Origin: Nitrospirota bacterium
GTDB lineage: Bacteria > Nitrospirota > Nitrospiria > Nitrospirales > Nitrospiraceae
NCBI GenBank assembly: GCA_028876065.1
Contig: JAGWTI010000031.1
Span: 1-33,315, forward strand
Reading direction: 5' to 3'
DNA: 33,315 nt
The notes beneath the pieces were generated by a model that did no database searches, was not told where the DNA came from, and worked only from the letters and a program-made list of their open reading frames with translations. This document shows, one piece after another, positions 1 through 33,271 of the stretch. Position 1 is the stretch's first letter, and each line of letters begins with the position of its first letter. A program made the translations under genes and the position numbers.

Positions 1-251
1 CCTCCGGAGAGATTCAGGGCGCGCTGGAGAAATACTATCCCGCCGCGCACGACGTGAACCGGATCTACGCGTTGAGCTATGCGGCCTGCGTGGCCTGCCG
101 CCTGGACCCGACCGATGTGAAGGGCTGCGCCCAACGGTTCAACGAGATCATCAACGCGAACAACGCCAAACGCGACGAGAGTGCGCGGACGGCGGAGGCC
201 TACCACCAGCGACTGGTCGGGCCGATACAAGGCACGCCAGGGGGGAAGTAG
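1..251 (+). CDS. Small lipoprotein, 3' part only (duplicate of 7119-7595)
   Basis: This is the last 82 codons of a gene that begins before the window; the reading frame enters at base 3 and stops at TAG 249-251. Bases 1-124 are identical to 7345-7468, inside the complete lipoprotein gene at 7119-7595, and then the two diverge. The visible protein carries the same three cysteines (AACVACRLDP and KGCAQRF) and a charged helical tail. The missing 5' end presumably holds a lipobox as in the full copy. Function is unknown and I recognise no named family. Similarity to the second copy continues past the stop codon into 279-404, so a larger unit was duplicated. Confidence 0.85.
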   Translation, partial: SGEIQGALEKYYPAAHDVNRIYALSYAACVACRLDPTDVKGCAQRFNEIINANNAKRDESARTAEAYHQRLVGPIQGTPGGK

Positions 252-278
252 CCCCCTTGGGGCATCGTCCCCATCCCG

Positions 279-404
279 ATGGCGCGCCGCAGCTCAGGAA
301 CGGGCCGTCACGACATGCTGGCTTGCTCCCTGGTTCCTTACGCTACAGGCGTCCCATCCAGACGAGGCCACATCCTCTCCATATCAACCGAGTCAGGGAT
401 TTGA
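279..404 (+). pseudogene. Remnant of a lost barrel gene (5' end of a duplicate of 7627-8569)
   Basis: Just after the duplicated lipoprotein gene, an ATG at 279 opens a 41-codon frame beginning MARRSSG, which parallels MIRRSRSG at 7627. The spacer before it (about atcgtccccatcccg) is shared by both loci. After the first few codons the similarity to the barrel gene disappears. I read this as the start of a first copy of the outer-membrane protein gene, the rest having been deleted or decayed. From 405 to about 560 I see no gene. The match is short, so confidence is modest. Confidence 0.4.
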
Positions 405-1043: not shown

Positions 1044-4000
1044 ATGGAGCGCAAGAACCGGAACGACGGCCACGCCAGCCTCTCCCGAGTCTGGAGCATC
1101 CTGTTGGGCATCGGCCTGGTGGCGGCCGGCTGCGCCAGCTCCGGCGACGTGGAACAGGTCCGGCAGGAGCGGGAGCAGGCCAAAGCCAAGATGAGCGCCG
1201 AACTCCAGCAAGAACGCCAGCTCGCCCAGTCCATGGAAAAGGAGAGCGAGGCGCGGAAGGCCGAGGCCGACAAGCTGGCCAAGGCCTTGGGAGGCGGCGC
1301 GGCGGCCAAGGCCATGGTCCCACGCCAAACGGCGGGCATGACCCTGACCGCGGCCCTGCAGAATAGCAATTGCCTCGACAAAATTGCGGCACAAAGCCCC
1401 AATCCGGCCGTTCCACAGGCTCTGTTTATCGGCGGCACCTTGCCGACCAAAGGCGGAAACTCTGCCTGCACCTCCGTCACCATCAGCACGACCGATACGA
1501 CGCCGTTTTCCGCCGCCAGCCCCCTGATTCCCGTCGTTGTAGGATCGGGTGGGACCCTGACGCTTGTGGACCCCGGCGCCGGCAGTCGGCTGACCCTCTA
1601 TGCCAGCTCCTTGCTGATCAAGAACAGTGGCACGATGCAGGCCGGCACGGCCTCTAATCCCGTCCAGGGCCAAATCACGATCGCGATGGCCGGCAATCAG
1701 TCGGCAGCCCTCGCTCCTTCCGCAACAGGCGGCGCTTCAATCGTAACCACCTCGAACAACGCCCCCAATGCCCGCGATATTACCGTGATGGACGGCGGCA
1801 CGTTGGCCCTCTATGGCGCCAAGGGTCTGTCGGCAACGCCAGGCACCCTGAACAAGGACATTGTCAGTGGCACCAAGAGCTGGACCTATTTAGCTGTGCC
1901 GGCCGGACCGGCCAAATATAACGATGCGGAAAACGTCAGCGCGCCCGTGCCGGCGACGAATCCGGACACGACGTTGACGCTGGCAACGCAGGTAGACTGG
2001 CAGATCAACAACTGGGTCTCCGTCGCCACGACCAGCTTTTCGTCTCATCAGACGGAGATCGTGCAGATTTGTGGCATCTCGTCGGTCGCCAACCCCGACC
2101 CCCAGGCATCAACGCTGGGCTTGCCCGCCAACGTGAGCCAGGTCACCTTGTGTTCAACCACTCCGCTCAAGCATTACCACTACGGCGGGCTCACACCCAC
2201 GCCGGGGTTCTTCCCGGCCGGGACCAAGCAAGTCGTCGCGAAGGGCGGCAACGCCATCGATGTCGGTCGCCAGGCAAAGAGCTTCTACGACGACCATACC
2301 CGCAACTACGGCATTGACGAAAGGGCGGAGGTGGCGCTGCTCTCGCGCAACATCAAGCTGACCTCCGTGGCCGGTTCAGCCGGGGACCAACAACTGTTTC
2401 AAAATACGGCGACGTACCCTCTTTCTTACGATATGGGCGGTCACGTGGTCGCAATGGTCACCGGCACGACCTACCCCACTCTGCAACTGGTGGGGGTGGA
2501 GATCGAAAAATTCGGGCAAGGGCTCACCGGACGGTACCCGGTCCATCTGCACATGCTGCAGAATCTGCCCGCGGGGAATGTGCTGGTTCAGGATGTCAGC
2601 GTCCACCACAGTTACAACAAATGCTATGTGCCCCACCAAACGCCTAACGCTCAGTTCTATAACAACGTCTGCGTCCGCACAGTGGGCCAAGGGTTCTATC
2701 TGGAAGACGGCAACCACATCACCGGCAATCAGTTCATGCGCAACCACGTCGCCGGCACGATGGCGGCCCTTTCAACTTACTCATTTCCGCAACAAAATGG
2801 CAGCCAGTATTGGGATGGCGACAATCTGCAAGTCCAACATTCCCACGTTCAAAGCGGCTCGATCACGGGGGCCACGAACGCCAGCCCCATTGTTGTCACC
2901 ACCAGCGCGCCTGTTCCATCCAACGGGATGCAGGTGACCGTTGCCGGCGTCCTGGGGAACACCGCCGCCAACGGGACATGGCCCGTCTCCAGCACCAACC
3001 CCTCCGCCGGCACCTTTGCGCTCCAGGGCTCGACCGGCAACGGAACGTTTGTCCAACCCGCCGGCGCCTGGACCATCGGCGGGCTGAATGCCATCACGGG
3101 CATCGTGCTGGACTCGGGCAACCTGCTCGCCATCCAGACTCAAAGCACCCCCGTGACGGGCACTCAGGTCACGATCTCCGGCACTGGGACCGCTGCCGAT
3201 GGGACCTGGACGATCACGAATGTGATCAGTGGCCCCCCTCGGTTTTCTCTCGTCGGCTCGAAAGGCAAATCCCCGGGGACCTATTCCTGTTGCAACGGAA
3301 CGTGGACGGCCTCCGGGACCGTGACCGATGCCACAAATAGGAGTCCCATCGTCATCACCAGTTCGAGCTCGCTCAACTCCGGCGCCAAAGTGACGATCTC
3401 GGGCGTCCAGGGGAACACCGCCGCCAACGGGACTTGGACGGTCACCAACATCGACGCCACGCACTTCTCGCTCCAGAGCTCGACCGGCAACGGGAACTAT
3501 CCCAAGCCCACGTGGGCCGATACCAACCCATCCCCCAACTGGTACAACGTCAACAACATCCCGGACACGGCCCAATCCAATGCCAATGGGAATACTCTGG
3601 ACTCGACGCATCCCGGAGGGTTTTGGATTACCAATCTCGGGAATGCCTTTGTGAACAATTCGGTGGCCGGGTGTCAGGGCCCGGGGCGAGGCTATTGGCT
3701 CTTGGCCCAAGGCCCGACGACCACCGGCTATCCGGAATTCACGGGCAATCGTGTGCATGGGTGTTATAACGGGATCGACAACGACGACACCACGGGCAAC
3801 ACCGTGCAGCCCTACCCCATGCTGTCCAGCACGGCGCAATATGCCCCTGTGCTCTTGCTGACCGACAACACGATCACCCGTTCGCGCAATAAGGCCGCCT
3901 GGTTCCGAAACTGGTACGCCACCCTCCACAATCATCGGTTCGCGACCAACCTGCGCGGGTTCTCCCTGCTGGTCGGAGGGGGGCCGGAGGGGACCTTCCC

Positions 4001-6284
4001 CGGTTTCTGGGGTCTCGTCTATCAAAACGTGATCGCCGGGATGACCCGGAACAATGTCGAGCGGTATCCGGCCTGTTCATCCGCCGGATGGCAACCGGAA
4101 TGCACCGACGTGGGGAATTTCAGTTTTGAAAACTACCCGGCCCACAATGTGAATATCCAAGGCTACAGTTATTACGACGGCCCGGCCCGGATCGAACACA
4201 ACCGCTTCGTCAATTTCCGCTTCGATCCCACGGGCATTCATGCGACCGATCGGGCCGCCCGATTGCTGACGAAAACCGATATTCAGCACATCGCCACCAC
4301 CGCCGGGATGGTGGGCCAACTCCAGGGCATTGTGACCCAGGCTGCGGCGAATGCCGCTCCGTCTTCGAACTACCAAGGCTATCCCGGCGATGTGGCCAAC
4401 GGTTGGCAAACGTCCAACGCCCAAACCGTTCCCCCGACGCAGTATATCCGCGACAGCATTTGGGACAATGTGGACTTCAAGCACCAGGTCTATACGGAAG
4501 CGGTCAACATGGGGCCCTTCCTCGACGGAGACAAAACGACCGTGATCCGAGACCTGGACAGTCACCTGACCGGACTGAGGGTCGTAGACGGCGGCGGAAA
4601 CTCCCATCACGACATCGTGCCGATTTCACTCAACAGCGTGGACTACTTCGCCACCGAGTACACCGTGGACGAGCCCCATTCGCGAGGCCCCAACGATTTT
4701 CGCTCAACTTCCTTGATGAGTCCCCACAAGTACGCCACGTTGAATGTCGAGTCCGTGACGAGTCCCGCTGGAGGCATCCCCACGCCGTTTCACGTGGTAG
4801 CTCGGCGGGACATGCCCGCCTATGGCGATACGGTGTATCCCAGTTTGTTCTTGTACGGTCGTGGGAAAAACCCGATCTACGAACCGTTCGTGATGGATCG
4901 AATGGGCTACACAGTCTACGGGGTGCAAGGAGTTGAACACTATCCGCCGTATACTCCCACAGCCTTCCAGAATCGGCTCCTCTTCAGCTATACCGACCCG
5001 CCGGTGCATAAGGCCGGCGATTATTTCGTCAATCGCATCGCCGTCTATCAGCCGGTGACGACGCCGTCGAACATCAAGGTCTATCGGATCAGCCGCCAGT
5101 GGGGGGGACAGCTCTATGGCACGGCACAGTACCCGCCCAGCTTTCACCCGCCTGTCGGGGCCTCGTGCGATCACACCTTCTTTGACAGACAATCCGAAAA
5201 GGAGGCCAAGTGGACGGACTGTATGAAGCGCGCCTTGAATCAAGGTGGGTACTCCGGCGGGATGACCATCCCGGCGGCGACGAGTTTGCAGCAGTTTGAA
5301 CAGCCCTACAAGACCTTAATGGGCGTCACAAACCCGCAGCCCTCCGACATCACGAATTTCATAAACGCGCAGACGTACTACTACGACACTACGAACAACC
5401 TGCTGTACTTCTACATGATCGAGGATAAGCCGGTGCAGAAACAGTATTCCCCCTATGGCACCTGCCATGCCGCCAAGTACAGCGATTACGTGACGCAGAT
5501 TCAGGGGATCAAGAGCTTCAGCGACCCGAATAGCGTGCAAGCCGCGTTGGACGCATCCTGCCTGGTCAGCGGCGGCACGCCCCAGCCCAATGATTTGTTT
5601 GTGTGCCATGAAACCGGCTGCACGGCCTACCTGGTGGATTTATCGGCGGCAACGATCACGACTCCTGGCGCGCCGCCGGCCACGCCGCCGCATCCCATTA
5701 CCCGCAAGGACTACAAAGCCTGGAACCAGTACCATTTTGTCTACGGGACGCCTGCGCAGGAACCCAATGGCGTGCCGGTGCCGACCACCGCGCCTCAAGA
5801 CGGCACGCCATTGCCCGCCTTCCTGGCGCCGACGGATGGCTTGCCACCCAACCAGGGCGGCAATCAAATTACCTATGATTTTTACCCCCTATCGGGCGGG
5901 CCGAACAGCGGCCAACCATTTCCGGTGACGGAAAACTTCCGCTACCATTGCGTCACGGCGCCGCCCTGGGCGCCGGTGAACGCTAGGGGCGCCTACCCTC
6001 CCAGCGGAGGCTTTACCTATCCTCTGAGCCCTTCTGTGTGTATGACGGCTGCCCAGGGAACCGCCGTCATGGAGACGGGAGTCGTGTTGCAGGTGGTCGT
6101 CACCAATCCCGGTAGCGGTTATACCTCGCCGCCGACGGTCACGATTACCCCCCCTGCCGGCGGAATGCAGGCTCAGGGAGTCGCCACCATCGCCAATGGA
6201 TCGGTGACCGGGGTGACCATGACGAATCAAGGCAGCGGCTATAACTTCGGACCGCAAGTTACGTTTTCTCCTCCTTCCCAGTGA
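1044..6284 (+). CDS. Giant surface lipoprotein with G8/CEMIP-TMEM2-like beta-helix
   Basis: This 1746-residue protein starts at ATG 1044 (AAAGGAG six bases before; an in-frame ATG at 1038 is too close to that site). In order it shows: a signal sequence with lipobox AAGC (Cys30); a coiled coil (about 35-85); a G8-like beta domain (about 150-260, GGTLTL...SLLIKNSGTMQAG); and a right-handed beta-helix. The helix carries hallmarks of animal CEMIP/TMEM2 and PKHD1L1: GRYPVHLHM near residue 496, then VSVHHSYNKC, GQGFYLEDGN, GGFWITN and NNSVAGCQG. Three immunoglobulin-like repeats with NTAANGTW motifs (about 605-820, E1_FCCH-like) interrupt it. Two GSGY...PPTVT repeats end the chain. It is probably displayed on the outer membrane and may bind or cleave a polysaccharide; the family link is by motif only, and no activity is shown. 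Confidence 0.8.
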   Translation: MERKNRNDGHASLSRVWSILLGIGLVAAGCASSGDVEQVRQEREQAKAKMSAELQQERQLAQSMEKESEARKAEADKLAKALGGGAAAKAMVPRQTAGMTLTAALQNSNCLDKIAAQSPNPAVPQALFIGGTLPTKGGNSACTSVTISTTDTTPFSAASPLIPVVVGSGGTLTLVDPGAGSRLTLYASSLLIKNSGTMQAGTASNPVQGQITIAMAGNQSAALAPSATGGASIVTTSNNAPNARDITVMDGGTLALYGAKGLSATPGTLNKDIVSGTKSWTYLAVPAGPAKYNDAENVSAPVPATNPDTTLTLATQVDWQINNWVSVATTSFSSHQTEIVQICGISSVANPDPQASTLGLPANVSQVTLCSTTPLKHYHYGGLTPTPGFFPAGTKQVVAKGGNAIDVGRQAKSFYDDHTRNYGIDERAEVALLSRNIKLTSVAGSAGDQQLFQNTATYPLSYDMGGHVVAMVTGTTYPTLQLVGVEIEKFGQGLTGRYPVHLHMLQNLPAGNVLVQDVSVHHSYNKCYVPHQTPNAQFYNNVCVRTVGQGFYLEDGNHITGNQFMRNHVAGTMAALSTYSFPQQNGSQYWDGDNLQVQHSHVQSGSITGATNASPIVVTTSAPVPSNGMQVTVAGVLGNTAANGTWPVSSTNPSAGTFALQGSTGNGTFVQPAGAWTIGGLNAITGIVLDSGNLLAIQTQSTPVTGTQVTISGTGTAADGTWTITNVISGPPRFSLVGSKGKSPGTYSCCNGTWTASGTVTDATNRSPIVITSSSSLNSGAKVTISGVQGNTAANGTWTVTNIDATHFSLQSSTGNGNYPKPTWADTNPSPNWYNVNNIPDTAQSNANGNTLDSTHPGGFWITNLGNAFVNNSVAGCQGPGRGYWLLAQGPTTTGYPEFTGNRVHGCYNGIDNDDTTGNTVQPYPMLSSTAQYAPVLLLTDNTITRSRNKAAWFRNWYATLHNHRFATNLRGFSLLVGGGPEGTFPGFWGLVYQNVIAGMTRNNVERYPACSSAGWQPECTDVGNFSFENYPAHNVNIQGYSYYDGPARIEHNRFVNFRFDPTGIHATDRAARLLTKTDIQHIATTAGMVGQLQGIVTQAAANAAPSSNYQGYPGDVANGWQTSNAQTVPPTQYIRDSIWDNVDFKHQVYTEAVNMGPFLDGDKTTVIRDLDSHLTGLRVVDGGGNSHHDIVPISLNSVDYFATEYTVDEPHSRGPNDFRSTSLMSPHKYATLNVESVTSPAGGIPTPFHVVARRDMPAYGDTVYPSLFLYGRGKNPIYEPFVMDRMGYTVYGVQGVEHYPPYTPTAFQNRLLFSYTDPPVHKAGDYFVNRIAVYQPVTTPSNIKVYRISRQWGGQLYGTAQYPPSFHPPVGASCDHTFFDRQSEKEAKWTDCMKRALNQGGYSGGMTIPAATSLQQFEQPYKTLMGVTNPQPSDITNFINAQTYYYDTTNNLLYFYMIEDKPVQKQYSPYGTCHAAKYSDYVTQIQGIKSFSDPNSVQAALDASCLVSGGTPQPNDLFVCHETGCTAYLVDLSAATITTPGAPPATPPHPITRKDYKAWNQYHFVYGTPAQEPNGVPVPTTAPQDGTPLPAFLAPTDGLPPNQGGNQITYDFYPLSGGPNSGQPFPVTENFRYHCVTAPPWAPVNARGAYPPSGGFTYPLSPSVCMTAAQGTAVMETGVVLQVVVTNPGSGYTSPPTVTITPPAGGMQAQGVATIANGSVTGVTMTNQGSGYNFGPQVTFSPPSQ
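2860..3510 (+). repeat. Three tandem E1_FCCH-like repeats inside the beta-helix gene
   Basis: The segment encodes three successive units. The first and third are close copies (GxITGATNASPIVVTT...VAGVLGNTAANGTW and GTVTDATNRSPIVITS...ISGVQGNTAANGTW); the middle one is more divergent (TISGTGTAADGTW). At DNA level 24 bases are identical between 2954-2977 and 3410-3433. The units lie between the GQGFYLEDGN and GGFWITN motifs, which are close together in CEMIP/TMEM2 proteins, so they look like an insertion into a surface loop of the helix. Confidence 0.65.
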
Positions 6285-6396: not shown

Positions 6397-7068
6397 ATGC
6401 AGGTCATCGAGCGAAACAGCCTCGCCAGCGGTTTCCGCCGTGTCGGTACCCTCTTGTGCTTTGGGCTTCTCGGCCTCTGGAGCCTTCCAGCTTCGGCCGA
6501 GTGGTACGTCGGCGGCACGGTGGGTGCGACGATCCCCAATGGGCTAACTGATACCAGCGGCACGGGGCAGCAGGGCGGCACGTTGAACACCTTTACCCAG
6601 CAAACGACGCTCGCCTACGGGGGCAAGGTGGGCTATTTCTTCGAGAGCCACAAGTGGCTGGGCCTCGACATGGACGTGTCCAATGCGACGCCGAACATCA
6701 ATGCCAAGCAGGCGTCGGTCACCGGCGGCACCGGGTTGGGCGCGAACAACGGGCAGAATTTGCGCATGACGGTCTGGTCCACGAATCTGGTGGCCCGCTA
6801 TCCGGGGGAGCGGTTTCGCCCCTATGTCGGCGGCGGGCTCGGCGTCTTCTTCGCCAATGCCGACGGGGCCTCCTCGGCGGACTGGGCGCCCGGGGCCACC
6901 GGCTTTGCGGGGCTCAACGTCAAGCTGATCGAGCACGTGTCCATGTCCCTGGAATACCGGTACCACTATGCGACGCTCCGTTTCGACAATATGCTGGGAC
7001 CGGGCCGGGGGTTTGAAGCCAATTACACGTCGAACACGCTGAACCTGGGGCTCAATTATCACTTCTGA
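6397..7068 (+). CDS. Outer-membrane beta-barrel protein
   Basis: This 223-residue protein has a signal peptide with a typical cleavage site (PASA-E, after residue 34). Alternating amphipathic strands follow, and the chain ends in aromatic-rich LNLGLNYHF, whose C-terminal Phe is the signature recognised by the BAM complex. Segments such as YVGGTVGATIPNG, RPYVGGGLGVFFANA and VSMSLEYRYHYATL match the OmpA-like/OmpW-like small eight-stranded barrel group. The start at ATG 6397 follows AAGAGG. It lies 112 bases after the giant lipoprotein gene and before a lipoprotein and another barrel, so it is probably part of one envelope locus. The substrate or partner is unknown. Confidence 0.8.
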   Translation: MQVIERNSLASGFRRVGTLLCFGLLGLWSLPASAEWYVGGTVGATIPNGLTDTSGTGQQGGTLNTFTQQTTLAYGGKVGYFFESHKWLGLDMDVSNATPNINAKQASVTGGTGLGANNGQNLRMTVWSTNLVARYPGERFRPYVGGGLGVFFANADGASSADWAPGATGFAGLNVKLIEHVSMSLEYRYHYATLRFDNMLGPGRGFEANYTSNTLNLGLNYHF

Positions 7069-7118
7069 ACCTCGTGCAGCGTGCGGGAAACAAACATTTA
7101 CAGTCAGGGGAGAACATC

Positions 7119-7595
7119 ATGACGACATCGAAGCTCTTCCAACTGATGCGGCGCAAAGCTTCCGCGGTGGTGTCTATCATAGGCCTGCTTCTGTTGATGC
7201 AAGGCTGCGGCGGCACCGATGAGGTCCAGGTCAAGGGGGAGTCCTGTCCGCTGCCGTCCAGCGTGGCGGATGAGGACCGGAACACGATGAAGAAGTTCAG
7301 CGCCAGCGTCAGCGGCATCATCACGTCGGTGGCCGGCGGCAGCGCCTCCGGAGAGATTCAGGGCGCGCTGGAGAAATACTATCCCGCCGCGCACGACGTG
7401 AACCGGATCTACGCGTTGAGCTATGCGGCCTGCGTGGCCTGCCGCCTGGACCCGACCGATGTGAAGGGTTGCGCCCAGCGGTTCAGCGACATCGTCAATG
7501 CGAACCATGCCAAGCGCGAAGAGAGCGCGCGCACGGCGGAGGCCTACCACAAGCAAGTGCTCGATCCGCTCAAGGGCATGCCAGACGGAAAGTAG
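7119..7595 (+). CDS. Small cysteine-containing lipoprotein (complete copy)
   Basis: This 158-residue protein starts at ATG 7119 with GGGGAGA just upstream; a GTG at 7074 is in frame but has no ribosome site. The signal sequence ends in LLMQGC (Cys30), a lipobox. The mature part has cysteines in GESCPLP, AACVACRL and KGCAQRF, which could form disulfides in the periplasm, and a charged helical tail. I recognise no family. A second copy, cut off by the window edge, lies at 1-251; identity over 124 bases followed by rapid divergence suggests gene conversion. Its place between two barrel genes suggests an outer-membrane role, which is inference. Confidence 0.75.
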   Translation: MTTSKLFQLMRRKASAVVSIIGLLLLMQGCGGTDEVQVKGESCPLPSSVADEDRNTMKKFSASVSGIITSVAGGSASGEIQGALEKYYPAAHDVNRIYALSYAACVACRLDPTDVKGCAQRFSDIVNANHAKREESARTAEAYHKQVLDPLKGMPDGK

Positions 7596-7626
7596 CCCCT
7601 TTGGGGAGGTATCGTCCCCATCCCGC

Positions 7627-8569
7627 ATGATTCGCCGTAGCCGGTCAGGTGTCTCGATCGCGATGGTCGCCTTCTGGGGGCTCTGGGGGGGCGACGGCGC
7701 CCGGTCCGGCGCAGGCCGCCAGCATCCAGGTCAACGGCCAGTGGGTGAATGCCGGAGGCGGGATCCGCCCCGGTGTCGTCGGCAGCTTCCTCACCTATGC
7801 GATGCCCACGGAGAGCATGGAGGAGGGCCACTGGTACGTGAAGGCGGTGCCGGGGTATTTCCTCGATTCGGGCAGCAACGACGGGCAGAAGCTGTCGCAG
7901 TTCGACGCGCAGGGTGCCGGCATGTCCGTCCGGTTCCTGCGTGCCCTCTCCGACCACTGGGGCGTGGGTTTACAAGGCGTCTATGCCCGAACTGCCAGCG
8001 GCAATGCCCAACAAATCAGCTTCGGCGCGCAAGGGTACGAGACGCAGGGCAACAGCCGCCTCAGTCTTCCGTTACAGTATTCGGCCTATAGCGTGATGGC
8101 GGAAGTGGTGTACGATCCCATGAGCGGCCCGGGATTCCGGGTCCCCATGTTTCTCGGACTGAGCCTCAACGCCTTGGATGCCACGACCGAAGGCACCTTC
8201 CGGTTTCAGGGGAACTCGTTCTACACGAAAAACAAGACGCAGCCCATTCCCGTGCCCGGCATCTCGATCGGGATCGCGCCGCAGCATAGTTGGGGGCCGT
8301 TCCGGTTCATTCCGTTTGCCGTGGGCACGCATGACCTGCAAAAGCTGAAACGCTTGCACCGGCTCGAAAACGTCAGCACCGGCGAAGTGGTCGAGAGCGG
8401 GGGGGAGCCGCATAGCTATTCTTCCCTGCATTTTGGGATCACGCTGAAATACATCCCGTGGGACCTCTCGGTTTCCTACGTGCGGGCCGGCCTCTACCTC
8501 GCCGATCATGACTCTCCGGTCACCAGCCAAACGGAGCTGTTCACGCTGGCCTGGGCCAAGACCTTCTAG
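7627..8569 (+). CDS. Outer-membrane barrel protein, frameshifted in a G7 run
   Basis: From about 7692 the frame ending at TAG 8567-8569 encodes a barrel: amphipathic strands, GVGLQGVYARTA, LHFGITLKYIPWDLSVSYVRAG and a C-terminal TLAWAKTF ending in Phe. In this frame the only upstream start is GTG 7649, which gives no signal peptide. ATG 7627 in another frame opens MIRRSRSGVSIAMVAFWGLWG, a good signal-peptide start. Removing one G from the seven-G run at 7685-7691 joins the two into a signal peptide ending PAQA-A. The gene is therefore either phase-variable, decayed, or affected by a sequencing indel. The decayed homologue at 279 supports ATG 7627 as the ancestral start. Confidence 0.7.
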
Positions 8570-13591: not shown

Positions 13592-14842
<1,251 letters not shown>

Positions 14843-14875
14843 GCTGTGTCCCTCCCGGGGAACGCTCCTGTGCCG

Positions 14876-15511
14876 CTACTTGTCTTTGGCGCCGTCCTTG
14901 CCCTGCTCCTTGTCGGCGTCTTTGGGCCTCTTGGGCGGACGCGAGATCACTTCGTCGATCAGCCCGTACTGCTTCGCCTCCTCGCCGGACATGAAATAGT
15001 CCCGCTCGGTGTCGTTGGCGATTTTCTCCAAGGGCTGTCCCGTGTGCTTAGCTAATATGTCGTTCAATCGCTCCCGAATCTTGAGGATTTCCCGCGCATG
15101 AATGTCGATTTCCGTGGCCTGCCCCTGGAATCCCCCCATCGGCTGGTGGATCATCACCCGGGCATTGGGCAGGGCGAAGCGCTTGCCTTTCGTCCCGGCC
15201 GCCAGCAGCAGTGCCCCCATGCTGGCCGCCTGGCCCAGACAGATGGTGTTGATCGGCGGCTTCACGTATTGCATCGTGTCGTATATGCCCATGCCGGCCG
15301 TGACGCTCCCGCCGGGCGAATTGATGTAGAGATTGATGTCTTTTTCCGGGTCCTCGGCTTCCAGGAACAGCAATTGGGCAATGATGAGGTTGGCGAAAAT
15401 GTCGTCGATCGGCGCGCCCAGGAAGATAATCCGGTCCTTGAGCAGGCGCGAGTAGATGTCGTAGGCGCGCTCACCGCGGTTGGTCTGCTCGATGACGATC
15501 GGCACTAACAT
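14876..15511 (-). CDS. clpP: ClpP, serine protease subunit
   Basis: This 211-residue protein has the Ser97 (GQAASMGA), His122 (MIHQP) and Asp171 (ERDYF) catalytic triad, and the NSPGGSV oxyanion segment. ClpP forms two stacked seven-member rings enclosing the proteolytic chamber and works with ClpX encoded next to it. The start [10 protein letters not shown] is the usual mature-like start with little or no propeptide. AAGGAC precedes ATG 15511. The C-terminal tail after residue 195 is short, lysine-rich and charged. The gene lies between tig and clpX, the standard order, 126 bases from tig. Confidence 0.97.
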
Positions 15512-15637
15512 AACACTCTGTCCTTTCTGTTCCGGTTACTCACGAGGCCCATCTTATCACAACTTTTCCGTCACGGCCTCTCTTCACGGTCTATTTTCTC
15601 TCCATCCCTTGCGTCTTCTCTGACCCCGGGGGTTCTC

Positions 15638-16960
15638 CTACCCTTGGATCACCGAATGGCGGAAGACGAAGTCCAGCGCCTTGTCGGCCAGGATGCGGGC
15701 CCTGAGCTCGTCGATGGAGTCTTGCCCGCCGGACTGAATCAGGCGGCCCAGCTCCTCCGGCGCCATCCTGAGCTCCTGGCTCAGCCGCAGGAGTTCGTTT
15801 TGGATGTCCTCCTGCTCGACCTTCAGCCCTTCCTTCTCGGCGATCGCTTCCAACACCAGGCCGATTTTGACCCGACGCATCGCCTCGGCCTTGTGCTCCT
15901 CACGCGCCTTCCGGATTTCCTCCTGACGCACGACCGGGTCCGGCGACTGGGGTTGGCCTTTCTGCCGCTGGCGGGCCTGCATCTGCTGGCGGACGATCGC
16001 TTCCAGCTCCCGCTCCACCAGGGTGTCCGGGAGATCGAAGTGATGGGTTTCCTCCAGCCGCTTCAGGATCGTATCTTTATAGGTATCTTCGACGTCTTTC
16101 TTGAGCGCTTTTTCCATTTCGCCGCGGAGTTTCTCCGTGAGCTCGGCCATTGAGGCATAAGGGCCGCAGTCTTTCGCGAATTCGTCGTCCAAGGCGGGGA
16201 GCTTCTTCCGCTTCACCGCCGCGACCGTGACCCGATAGACGACCGTTTTCCCGGCCAACCGCTGGTCCGGGTGGGAGGCAGGATACGGTTGCGGGATCTC
16301 GGCGAGTTCCCCTTCCTTCTTGCCCACCAGCGCTGCGTCCACCTCGATGCCCAGAATCGGCGTTTTGGAGCCGATCTTGTGGAGTTGTCCGGTTTGCTTC
16401 GCGCCGTCCACCGGCGTCTGCTCCAGGAATCCCTCCACGTCCAAAATGGCATAGTCCCCTTCGGCCAAGGCCGTGCCGGCCGGCGCGGCCTCGAGCTGCG
16501 CCTGCCGCTCGCGCAGGACGTCGAGCGTCCCGGCGACTTGCTCATCGGTGACGGTGCGTTTGTCCGGCTTCAGCGAAATCGGGTTGGGCGCCTTATAGTC
16601 GCGCAACTCGATCTTCGGCTTGATTTCGACCGTGGCCGTGAACGAGAAGGCGGCGTCTTTCTTGATTTTCACCCGCTCGAGCGGCGGAATTTCCACGAGG
16701 ACCGGGACGATGCCCGCTTCCCGGACGGCCCGTTCATAATAGTCCGGCACCAGCCGGCGGACCACATCTTCCTCGACTTCCTTGGCATAACGTTTTTCCA
16801 GCATGGACAAGGGGGCCTTGCCCGGCCGGAAGCCCGGGATGCGCACATGCTTGTTCAGCTCCGCGTAGGCCAGCGCGAAGTGTTTATTGACATCCTCGGA
16901 GGGGACTTCGATCTTCAGCGCGCGTTTGACAGGGCCGAGTTCGGTGACATCGACTTTCAT
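15638..16960 (-). CDS. tig: Trigger factor, ribosome-associated chaperone
   Basis: This 440-residue protein has the family's normal length. The N-terminal ribosome-binding domain carries the signature IPGFRPGKAP (residues 41-50). A central FKBP-type peptidyl-prolyl isomerase domain spans about 155-245 (AEGDYAILDVEG, LVGKKEGE), and the long helical C-terminal arms (about 250-440) cradle nascent chains. Trigger factor binds near the peptide exit tunnel and helps fold new proteins. It is the first gene of the tig-clpP-clpX group. The 156 bases between it and tRNA-Leu contain only the degenerate cagtcagcgatcagcc repeat-like sequence. Confidence 0.95.
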   Translation of the reverse strand: MKVDVTELGPVKRALKIEVPSEDVNKHFALAYAELNKHVRIPGFRPGKAPLSMLEKRYAKEVEEDVVRRLVPDYYERAVREAGIVPVLVEIPPLERVKIKKDAAFSFTATVEIKPKIELRDYKAPNPISLKPDKRTVTDEQVAGTLDVLRERQAQLEAAPAGTALAEGDYAILDVEGFLEQTPVDGAKQTGQLHKIGSKTPILGIEVDAALVGKKEGELAEIPQPYPASHPDQRLAGKTVVYRVTVAAVKRKKLPALDDEFAKDCGPYASMAELTEKLRGEMEKALKKDVEDTYKDTILKRLEETHHFDLPDTLVERELEAIVRQQMQARQRQKGQPQSPDPVVRQEEIRKAREEHKAEAMRRVKIGLVLEAIAEKEGLKVEQEDIQNELLRLSQELRMAPEELGRLIQSGGQDSIDELRARILADKALDFVFRHSVIQG

Positions 16961-17116: not shown

Positions 17117-17199
17117 TGGTGCGAGAGGGGGGACTTGAACCCCCACGGTTTCCCACGAGATCCTAAGTCTCGCGCGTCTGCCAGTTCCGCCACTCTCGC
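17117..17199 (-). tRNA. tRNA-Leu (anticodon TAG)
   Basis: The minus strand folds into a class II tRNA: acceptor GCGAGAG/CTCTCGC, a D-arm with GCGGAACTGGCAGACGC, anticodon stem CGAGA/TCTCG around CTTAGGA (anticodon at 17163-17165), an 11-base variable arm, T-arm GGGGGTTCAAGTCCCCC, discriminator A and encoded CCA (17117-17119). It reads CUN leucine codons. It lies upstream of tig on the same strand and has its own promoter. Confidence 0.97.
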
Positions 17200-18580: not shown

Positions 18581-18775
18581 AGGCGTGATCCTAACGGACC
18601 TCGTGACACTATCGGGGTTTCATGGTAAGGACTAGGCCCGGCGGCGGCGTCAACTCTTTCCTGCGGAAGCGTATGGCCGGCCGGCGCGCCGCGCCGGAGA
18701 TGCGCATGGCGTTGCACCCTGTGGGCGGGCCGGGGACCGGACCCGCTGCCGGCGATCGAGAGGAGACCTGTGACG

Positions 18776-20038
18776 ATGAGCAAGATATCCCGCAGACGGT
18801 TCCTGCAGACATCGGTGCTGGCCGTCGGCGCGCTGGCCCTGGGCGATGTGGCGAAGGATGCGCTGGGCCTGCTGGGTGAACGGAGCCTGGCCTCCGCGGC
18901 CGACGGGTCGAAGCCGGCCGCGCCGATCAAGATCGGCATTCTGGACCCCCTCACCGGACCCTATAAGACCTCCTCGATCCACGATGTCCATGGCGCCACG
19001 GTCGCGATGGACTGGTACAACAAACGCGGCGGGGTCTTGGGCCGCCAAGTCGCCATCGTCGAGGCCGACACGGCCTCCAACGTGGAGGTCGCGCTCAAGG
19101 CGGCGACCAAATTGATCGACGAAGATCGCGTGGATTTCCTGATGGGCACGTTCACGGGCGAATGCTCACTGGCCGTGAGCGAGCTGGCGAAGAAGGAAAA
19201 CAAGCTGTTCATGGTCACCGGCGCGCACATCATGGAGCTCACCGGCGCCCGGTGCAATTCCCACACGTTCGTGTTCATGCCGAACGCCCGGATGCTGGCG
19301 CAGGCCGTGGCCCCCGAGATCGTGAAAGCCTACGGGACCCGCTGTTACACGATCACCGCGAACACGATGGACGGCCGGGCCGCGCTGGAGGCGATGACTC
19401 AGGCTCTGCGTGGGCAGGGAGCGGAAATGCTCGGCGGCGCCACGACCCCCTTCGGAACGACGGATTTTACGGCCGCGTTCACCGAGGCCAAGGCCGCCAA
19501 GCCCACGGTCATCGTGCTCAACCTCTACGGATGGGACCTGGTCAACGCGCTCAAGACCTATGCCAAGATGGAACTGGCGAAGGAGAAGATCGGCGTCGGC
19601 GGCATGGTCGCCGGCGAGCAGATCGGCCGGCCTTTGGGCTATGCCAGCAACGCCGGTGTCTGGGGGCTGATCTGGGACCCGAAGGTCAACACCGAAGGCT
19701 CCAGGAAATTCATCCAGGGCGTGATCGACAAGTACAACCATACCCCGACCTCGCGCTGTTACCTCGGCTATGCGGCGATGACGCAGATCCTCGAAGCGGT
19801 CCGCCGCACCGGCACGACCGACACGGCCACGATCATCAAGGCCTTGGAAGGCCATGAATTCGACGGGCTGAAAGAGGGCCGGTCCTATTTCCGGGCCTGG
19901 GACCACCAACATGTGCAGGATGTGTTGGTCGGCGAGGCGTACGGGAAAGAATTGGGGCTGGGACACTATAAGATTCTGACGACCATCCCCGGCGACTCGG
20001 TGGCAGGCACCCGCGATCAAACCACCTGCAAGCTCTGA
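18776..20038 (+). CDS. ABC-type substrate-binding protein, LivK/UrtA-like, Tat-exported
   Basis: This 420-residue protein has a twin-arginine signal (SRRRFLQTSVLAVGALAL) and then a type I periplasmic-binding fold of the branched-chain amino-acid/amide group (Peripla_BP_6): IKIGILDPLTGPYKTS, HGATVAMDWYNKRGGVLGR, DFLMGTFTGECSLAVSELA and TTDFTAAFTEAKAAKPTVIVLNLYGWD. It would capture a small amide, urea or amino acid in the periplasm; the ligand cannot be read from the sequence. No permease or ATPase gene is nearby, so it is an orphan or serves a distant transporter or sensor. ATG 18776 follows AGGAG at ten bases; GTG 18770 is an alternative. Export through the TatA system of this window is plausible. 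Confidence 0.85.
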   Translation: MSKISRRRFLQTSVLAVGALALGDVAKDALGLLGERSLASAADGSKPAAPIKIGILDPLTGPYKTSSIHDVHGATVAMDWYNKRGGVLGRQVAIVEADTASNVEVALKAATKLIDEDRVDFLMGTFTGECSLAVSELAKKENKLFMVTGAHIMELTGARCNSHTFVFMPNARMLAQAVAPEIVKAYGTRCYTITANTMDGRAALEAMTQALRGQGAEMLGGATTPFGTTDFTAAFTEAKAAKPTVIVLNLYGWDLVNALKTYAKMELAKEKIGVGGMVAGEQIGRPLGYASNAGVWGLIWDPKVNTEGSRKFIQGVIDKYNHTPTSRCYLGYAAMTQILEAVRRTGTTDTATIIKALEGHEFDGLKEGRSYFRAWDHQHVQDVLVGEAYGKELGLGHYKILTTIPGDSVAGTRDQTTCKL

Positions 20039-25730: not shown

Positions 25731-25820
<90 letters not shown>

Positions 25821-26090: not shown

Positions 26091-26395
26091 CACCTTTTCA
26101 TGGGAATGGAACTTCATTGCCTGCTGGTACAACTGGCGCGGCACTGCCGGCTGGTTCGCCGTCAGTATGTTTCTCTCGCGCCAAAAAGAACGGGGCCGGG
26201 CCCTGTGCAACAGAATCCTGTGAACCCCGCCAGGTCCGGAAGGAAGCAACGGTAAGCAGGCTAGTTTGTGTGCCGCAGGATCACCTGGCCCCACTATTTC
26301 TTGGCGCGATAGAAAATACCCGGTTGATTTGTCAGCAGGCCATGGCGCGCCAGTTGTACCAGCAGGCAATGAAGTTCCATTCCCATGAAAAGGTG
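26091..26395. repeat. 50-bp identical inverted repeats flanking ffs
   Basis: Bases 26091-26140 are the exact reverse complement of 26346-26395, and weaker similarity extends beyond both. The SRP RNA gene (26192-26292) lies between them. They are parts of the 122-bp repeat array. Recombination between the arms would invert ffs; such an inversion would leave the RNA gene intact but could move it relative to its promoter. Confidence 0.8.
26192..26292 (+). ncRNA. ffs: Signal recognition particle RNA, small bacterial type (4.5S)
   Basis: The conserved apical core CCAGGTCCGGAAGGAAGCA (26231-26249) and the GTAAGCAGG and GTGTGCCGCAGGATC strands form the Ffh-binding hairpin with its GGAA tetraloop. 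The ends GGGGCCGGG (26192-26200) and CCTGGCCCC (26284-26292) pair, closing the long rod. With Ffh protein it targets membrane proteins to the translocon. The length of about 101 bases is normal for the 4.5S type. A weak promoter-like CTGCCG...TATGTT (26144-26171) lies inside the adjoining repeat. It is upstream of dnaX and downstream of tRNA-Ser. Confidence 0.93.
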
Positions 26396-33196: not shown

Positions 33197-33271
33197 TGGT
33201 GGGCGATACAGGTATCGAACCTGTGGCCTCTTCCGTGTGAAGGAAGCGCTCTACCACTGAGCTAATCGCCC
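33197..33271 (-). tRNA. tRNA-Val (anticodon CAC)
   Basis: The minus strand gives acceptor GGGCGAT/ATCGCCC, D-arm TAGCTCAGTGGTAGAGC, anticodon stem CTTCC/GGAAG around TTCACAC (anticodon CAC at 33239-33237), T-arm CACAGGTTCGATACCTGT, discriminator A and encoded CCA. It reads GUG valine codons. Its promoter would lie beyond the window end. Confidence 0.97.

Follow-up and report, generated by a model that had tools for sequence, protein, structure and literature searches.

The closest described systems are the human proteins TMEM2 and CEMIP (KIAA1199/HYBID), for which both whether and where hyaluronan is cut are disputed and the active site has no assignment. The TMEM2 substitutions R265C, D273N and D286N, all located in lectin-like domain 1, were reported to abrogate activity, and one laboratory saw no activity in the purified TMEM2 ectodomain (PMC10206443). 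The first-pass annotation of the DNA studied here had spoken of animal relatives that bind or cut hyaluronan; cutting by TMEM2 itself is a matter of dispute, with PMC10206443 and PMC10276149 standing against PMC10474455. Bacterial G8/CEMIP_beta-hel proteins as such are already covered by Pfam, and a literature search, judged by titles and the first parts of abstracts, found no papers about bacterial CEMIP/TMEM2 homologues.

The window, that is, the whole stretch of 33,315 nucleotides that was analysed, is an entire contig (C26) of a genome assembly of 3.4 Mb in 158 contigs. It encodes a giant CEMIP-like lipoprotein of 1746 amino acids in one uninterrupted forward frame (1044–6284), which is open from position 792 and starts with the ATG at 1044, six bases past AAAGGAG. 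The features of this gene, of its neighbours and of loci elsewhere with the same N-terminus are listed below, in window coordinates unless a locus is named.

3–251, forward: 3′-terminal part of another copy of the lipoprotein gene at 7074–7595, truncated by the contig start
706–1032, forward: small zipper lipoprotein of 108 amino acids, homologous to the N-terminus of the giant
1044–6284, forward: giant CEMIP-like lipoprotein (Pfam, PDB and alignments of relatives)
1044–1133, forward: signal peptide and lipobox of the giant, with Cys30 (sequence; Cys aligned in lineage relatives)
1131–1295, forward: Lpp-like zipper module of the giant, common to other exoproteins of the lineage
1470–1823, forward: G8 domain of the giant (Pfam PF10162)
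2310–2831, forward: CEMIP beta-helix block with GRYPVHLHM and GQGFYLEDGN, aligned to TMEM2 478–614
2871–3515, forward: three E1_FCCH-like repeats of ~63 amino acids within the beta-helix
3537–4223, forward: second beta-helix block, which holds GGFWITN and aligns weakly to TMEM2 655–815
4524–4583, forward: DGDK...D.D..L.G motif, matched to its TMEM2 counterpart; weak alone (−2.3 bits)
6027–6281, forward: C-terminal glycine-rich repeats of the GSGYTSPPTVTI type, also found in phage tail and baseplate families
6397–7068, forward: outer-membrane beta-barrel (OMP_b-brl), conserved neighbour
7074–7595, forward: small lipoprotein, conserved neighbour
7649–8569, forward: another conserved neighbour, probably an outer-membrane protein, without a Pfam family
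L036 3815–5473 (G028:C49): zipper N-terminus on a histidine phosphatase
L037 3382–6165 (G003:C23) and L038 144–2702 (G001:C64): zipper N-terminus on GH141-like beta-helix proteins

Profile searches against the G8 and CEMIP families placed both domains above their curated Pfam cut-offs: G8 (PF10162) scored 40.3 bits against a cut-off of 22.9 (E 3.5e-10, residues 143–260), and CEMIP_beta-hel (PF24606) 97.9 bits against 27.3 (E 9.2e-28, residues 464–596), with further sub-threshold matches to E1_FCCH and Beta_helix. The only solved structure matching with significance was the human TMEM2 ectodomain, 8C6I, at E 6.8e-15 with the single sequence and 1.2e-23 with the family profile. The two proteins are collinear, running from the G8 region through the main beta-helix block and the second block to a very weak DGDK...D.D..L.G match, this motif being the only part of the TMEM2 domain X region that aligns in the giant. 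The motifs GRYPVHLHM (residues 496–504), GQGFYLEDGN (548–557) and GGFWITN (858–864), already named in the first-pass annotation, were aligned in five relatives and are largely invariant, with single substitutions in some. Judged by these profile and structure matches, which lie far beyond chance, the core of the giant is truly related to human CEMIP/TMEM2. AlphaFold2 returned pLDDT values of 29.8 and 29.6 (window and Thalassospira sequences, three source proteins); at a confidence this low (30), the beta-helix fold of the giant rests on homology to 8C6I. The first-pass proposals of a G8-like domain and, by homology, of a CEMIP-type beta-helix are thus borne out.

In the post-G8 segment and the C-terminal part of the giant, Pfam matches to the lectin-like (GG/ILEI) domains were lacking even at E values up to 10, and the end of the G8 match (residue 233) is separated from the next shared strand (residue 318) by 84 residues, compared with 211 in TMEM2. 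The missing ILEI match and the shortened segment therefore identify the giant as a CEMIP/TMEM2 scaffold without detectable lectin domains, so that the CEMIP/TMEM2 architecture proposed at first holds for the G8 domain and the beta-helix but not for the lectin-like domains. An ILEI search across the window's genome likewise gave no match; it adds little, because the controls were equally silent and there was no positive control.

Within the retained core, 131 residues of the giant were aligned with TMEM2 and 47 were identical; 39 of these 47 are the same in every one of the six bacterial giants. Polar residues invariant in the six giants and identical in human TMEM2 number 19, and include D425, R427, E429, H467, E486, Q492, R497, H501, H503, H521, H522, H531, E554 and D555 of the giant, corresponding in the same order to D480, R482, E484, H519, E535, Q541, R546, H550, H552, H575, H576, H585, E608 and D609 of TMEM2 (residue number = 8C6I chain position + 82). 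On this alignment, the conservation of the 19 residues is an enzyme-like pattern, and the shared set provides a concrete list of candidate active-site residues, which may together form one site. Since no lectin domains are detectable and the core residues are kept, the shared residues are the place to look for an active site. A G8/beta-helix protein with the same His/Glu/Asp/Arg set and no detectable lectin domain sets a candidate active site apart from the part that may capture the substrate, and the bacterial giant family thereby names residues worth testing in TMEM2/CEMIP.

The N-terminus of the giant carries the lipobox VAAG|C with Cys30, and a Cys occupies the equivalent place in the lineage relatives. 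The Lpp/OprI alanine-zipper model NF040598 scored 22.8 bits against this region, below its cut-off of 43, and small hydrophobic residues made up a fraction of 0.57 at the a/d heptad positions, a value equalled by 18% of shuffled sequences. Because the Lpp/OprI score is below the cut-off and the heptad pattern is no better than that of shuffles, a coiled coil in the N-terminal helix is plausible at most; of the coiled-coil lipid anchor suggested in the first-pass annotation, the lipid anchor is retained, and the coiled coil stays a plausible suggestion. Residues 16–84, which span signal, lipobox and zipper, recur at 58–76% identity at the start of several unlike proteins. Among them are the products of the genes directly upstream of the giant, with TIG and weak thaumatin matches in G001 and with FN3 in G003 and in G014; at other loci of two genomes the module precedes a beta-helix protein that has a GH141 insertion domain (G003:C23, G001:C64). 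More distant versions begin the G028 histidine phosphatase (41%) and the 108-residue lipoprotein that stands alone (~39%). The beta-helix gene of G001 lies in two frames (L038 144–662 and 675–2702), reflecting either a real break or an assembly error. The same anchor, which carries GH141-like beta-helix and histidine phosphatase domains, thus displays enzyme-type domains elsewhere. The module was present in 5 of 396 genomes of the window's phylum; it is absent from the giants of Thalassospira, whose N-terminus is a signal-like stretch, and one lineage has therefore either gained the anchor on its core or lost it. One lipoprotein anchor is accordingly reused on several unlike exoproteins of a nitrite-oxidising lineage, and little is known of how that lineage handles matrix polysaccharide. 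A more far-reaching proposal, which we regard as improbable, is that the zipper is a lineage-specific docking module through which neighbouring small, medium and giant zipper proteins would form one surface complex displaying several polymer-degrading enzymes, with the lectin-free CEMIP-like beta-helix as its largest catalytic arm.

The stop codon of the small zipper lipoprotein overlaps the ribosome-binding site of the giant, and four genomes of two genera share one arrangement: small lipoprotein, (zipper protein), giant, beta-barrel, lipoprotein. The 7649–8569 protein was recognised in two of the three other cluster genomes and, beside the barrel and lipoprotein, in G010. We read this cluster as a putative cell-envelope operon. 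The cassette is partly duplicated in tandem: window positions 1–293 match 7345–7641 at 88%, and contig C59 ends in a copy (70%) of the upstream region that includes one more small zipper lipoprotein (L019, L022), the duplicated copy being interrupted by contig ends. Transporters and glycan-utilisation genes were not identified beside the giant gene. Farther along the window, clpX, clpP and tig were recognised by eye from translations (13592–16960, reverse strand), with TatA and M24 peptidase genes nearer the cluster. The window also contains a small SRP RNA (26194–26293, forward), three tRNAs (17120–17199, 25731–25817 and 33200–33271) and a periplasmic binding protein of the urea/branched-chain amino-acid type that scored well below the urea-transporter cut-offs (18770–20035, forward).

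The window's genome encodes a 5′-truncated protein of 831 amino acids (from the first ATG) whose match to Kuenenia NxrA (7b04) extends over almost its entire length and scores 1126 bits, which makes the host very likely a nitrite-oxidising lithotroph and agrees with its earlier description as a chemolithotroph. Gene content suggests that it belongs to a Nitrospira-like lineage. The giant family is rare and patchily distributed: a CEMIP_beta-hel domain occurs in 6 of the 396 genomes of the phylum, and the giant type in only four of these six. The core of the window protein is 59–60% identical over ~1345 residues to that of Thalassospira (Alphaproteobacteria), a between-phyla value that nearly matches the 63% of the same-genus pair G000/G001; the window and Thalassospira versions of ClpX, a highly conserved housekeeping protein, share 66–67% identity. 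The tree of the core joins the window protein to that of G014, a member of another genus, with support of 100/100, whereas the beta-barrel, M24 peptidase and TatA of G000 are 91.5, 95.1 and 90.9% identical to those of same-genus G003 and 79.8, 72.6 and 70.0% identical to those of G014. This disagreement between core tree and flanking genes is best explained by exchange of the giant gene through transfer or recombination, which may have run in either direction. No relative of the giant was found in the viral contigs searched, and the plasmids searched yielded distant partial matches only.

The E1_FCCH-like repeats of ~63 residues vary in number and place, with three in the window giant, three in the G001 protein, four in G003, none in G014 and seven, spread over five places, in each of the two Thalassospira proteins. 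They occupy about seven different points of one conserved core, near residues 359, 509, 600, 930, 1012, 1547 and the C-terminus (window numbering). These points of the conserved core accept a domain without loss of the rest; the inserted units probably serve as spacers or as ancillary domains for binding. The repeat type of window 2871–3515 was also observed in L002, L003, L012 and L013.

With moderate confidence, we interpret the giant as an outer-membrane-anchored, polysaccharide-active beta-helix protein that would cut, or at least bind, a matrix polymer, its substrate reach adjusted by the inserted repeats. It would be held in the outer membrane by its lipid, as suggested by Ala at +2 and the beta-barrel neighbour; the G8 domain and the CEMIP-type right-handed beta-helix, a fold predicted from 8C6I homology, would bind and probably cleave an extracellular polysaccharide, most likely in the biofilm matrix of the cells themselves or of their neighbours; and any catalysis would fall to H467, E486, R497, H501, H503, H521, H522, H531, E554 and D555 of the invariant polar set. 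This interpretation is supported by the profile and PDB homology to G8/CEMIP/TMEM2, by the 19 polar residues shared with TMEM2 in an enzyme-like pattern, by a core nearly as conserved between phyla as between some genomes of one genus, by the GH141-like beta-helix and histidine phosphatase carried on the same zipper anchor elsewhere, and by the retention in four genomes of the cluster, with its small lipoproteins and a barrel predicted to lie in the outer membrane. It is weakened by the undetectable lectin domain, which is thought to bind sugar, by the inactivity of the purified TMEM2 ectodomain in one laboratory (PMC10206443) and by the lack of identified transporter or glycan-utilisation genes beside the giant gene. 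A role on matrix polysaccharide is nevertheless a reasonable reading of the sequence, whereas the host-like polysaccharide suggested in the first-pass annotation finds no support in the present analysis.

The main rival, which we consider possible though unlikely, is a non-catalytic adhesin or matrix scaffold, in which the beta-helix would serve as a stiff rod for display, attaching to surfaces or to polysaccharide and doing no cutting. The size of the giant, the repeats inserted at seven core points, the C-terminal repeats common to phage tail proteins and the FN3 or TIG domains, rather than enzymes, on the adjacent zipper proteins would all suit such a rod; the conserved polar His/Asp/Glu motifs of the helix, found even in human TMEM2, would be superfluous in it. 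Outer-membrane lipoproteins face the periplasm by default, and this, together with the Lpp-like N-terminus and the failure to identify a surface-export gene alongside, is what a periplasmic envelope protein would have in its favour, with the zipper directed inward as in Lpp and the giant acting on peptidoglycan or on a periplasmic polymer during export. We judge that placement improbable, since the Thalassospira core stands behind a signal-like N-terminus with no zipper, and so is not tied to the anchor, and since inserted repeats of this size are characteristic of exoproteins. That the giant is a true hyaluronidase acting on animal-like hyaluronan, to which the homology to CEMIP/TMEM2 would point, is very unlikely: lectin-like domain 1, the site of R265, D273 and D286 (PMC10206443), is not detectable in the giant, NxrA-based metabolism gives no reason to expect a hyaluronan source, and the activity of TMEM2 itself is disputed.

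Compared with known systems, the giant shares with human TMEM2 (8C6I) and CEMIP a G8 domain continuous with a CEMIP-type beta-helix, the GRYPVH.H, HHS...C...H and LEDG motifs and a weak DGDK...D.D match further on. It differs from them in having no detectable lectin-like (GG/ILEI) domains, in its inserted bacterial repeats and in its lipid anchor, which stands in place of a transmembrane helix or free secretion. The Thalassospira proteins (~1885 amino acids; L002, L003) resemble it in core (59–60% identity) and repeat type, but have a signal-like N-terminus without zipper anchor, seven repeats in five places and other gene neighbours. Smaller bacterial proteins (L015, L016) likewise have G8 and CEMIP_beta-hel above the Pfam cut-offs, and a Croceibacterium plasmid protein annotated as "G8 domain-containing protein" is counted among them here; unlike the giant, such proteins have no zipper and are only weakly similar to its core, and L015 bears PKD and cadherin-like domains at its C-terminus. 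As in the Lpp/OprI alanine-zipper lipoproteins (NF040598), the lipobox of the giant is followed by an Ala-rich stretch, although its zipper scores below that family's cut-off and is fused to a large ectodomain.
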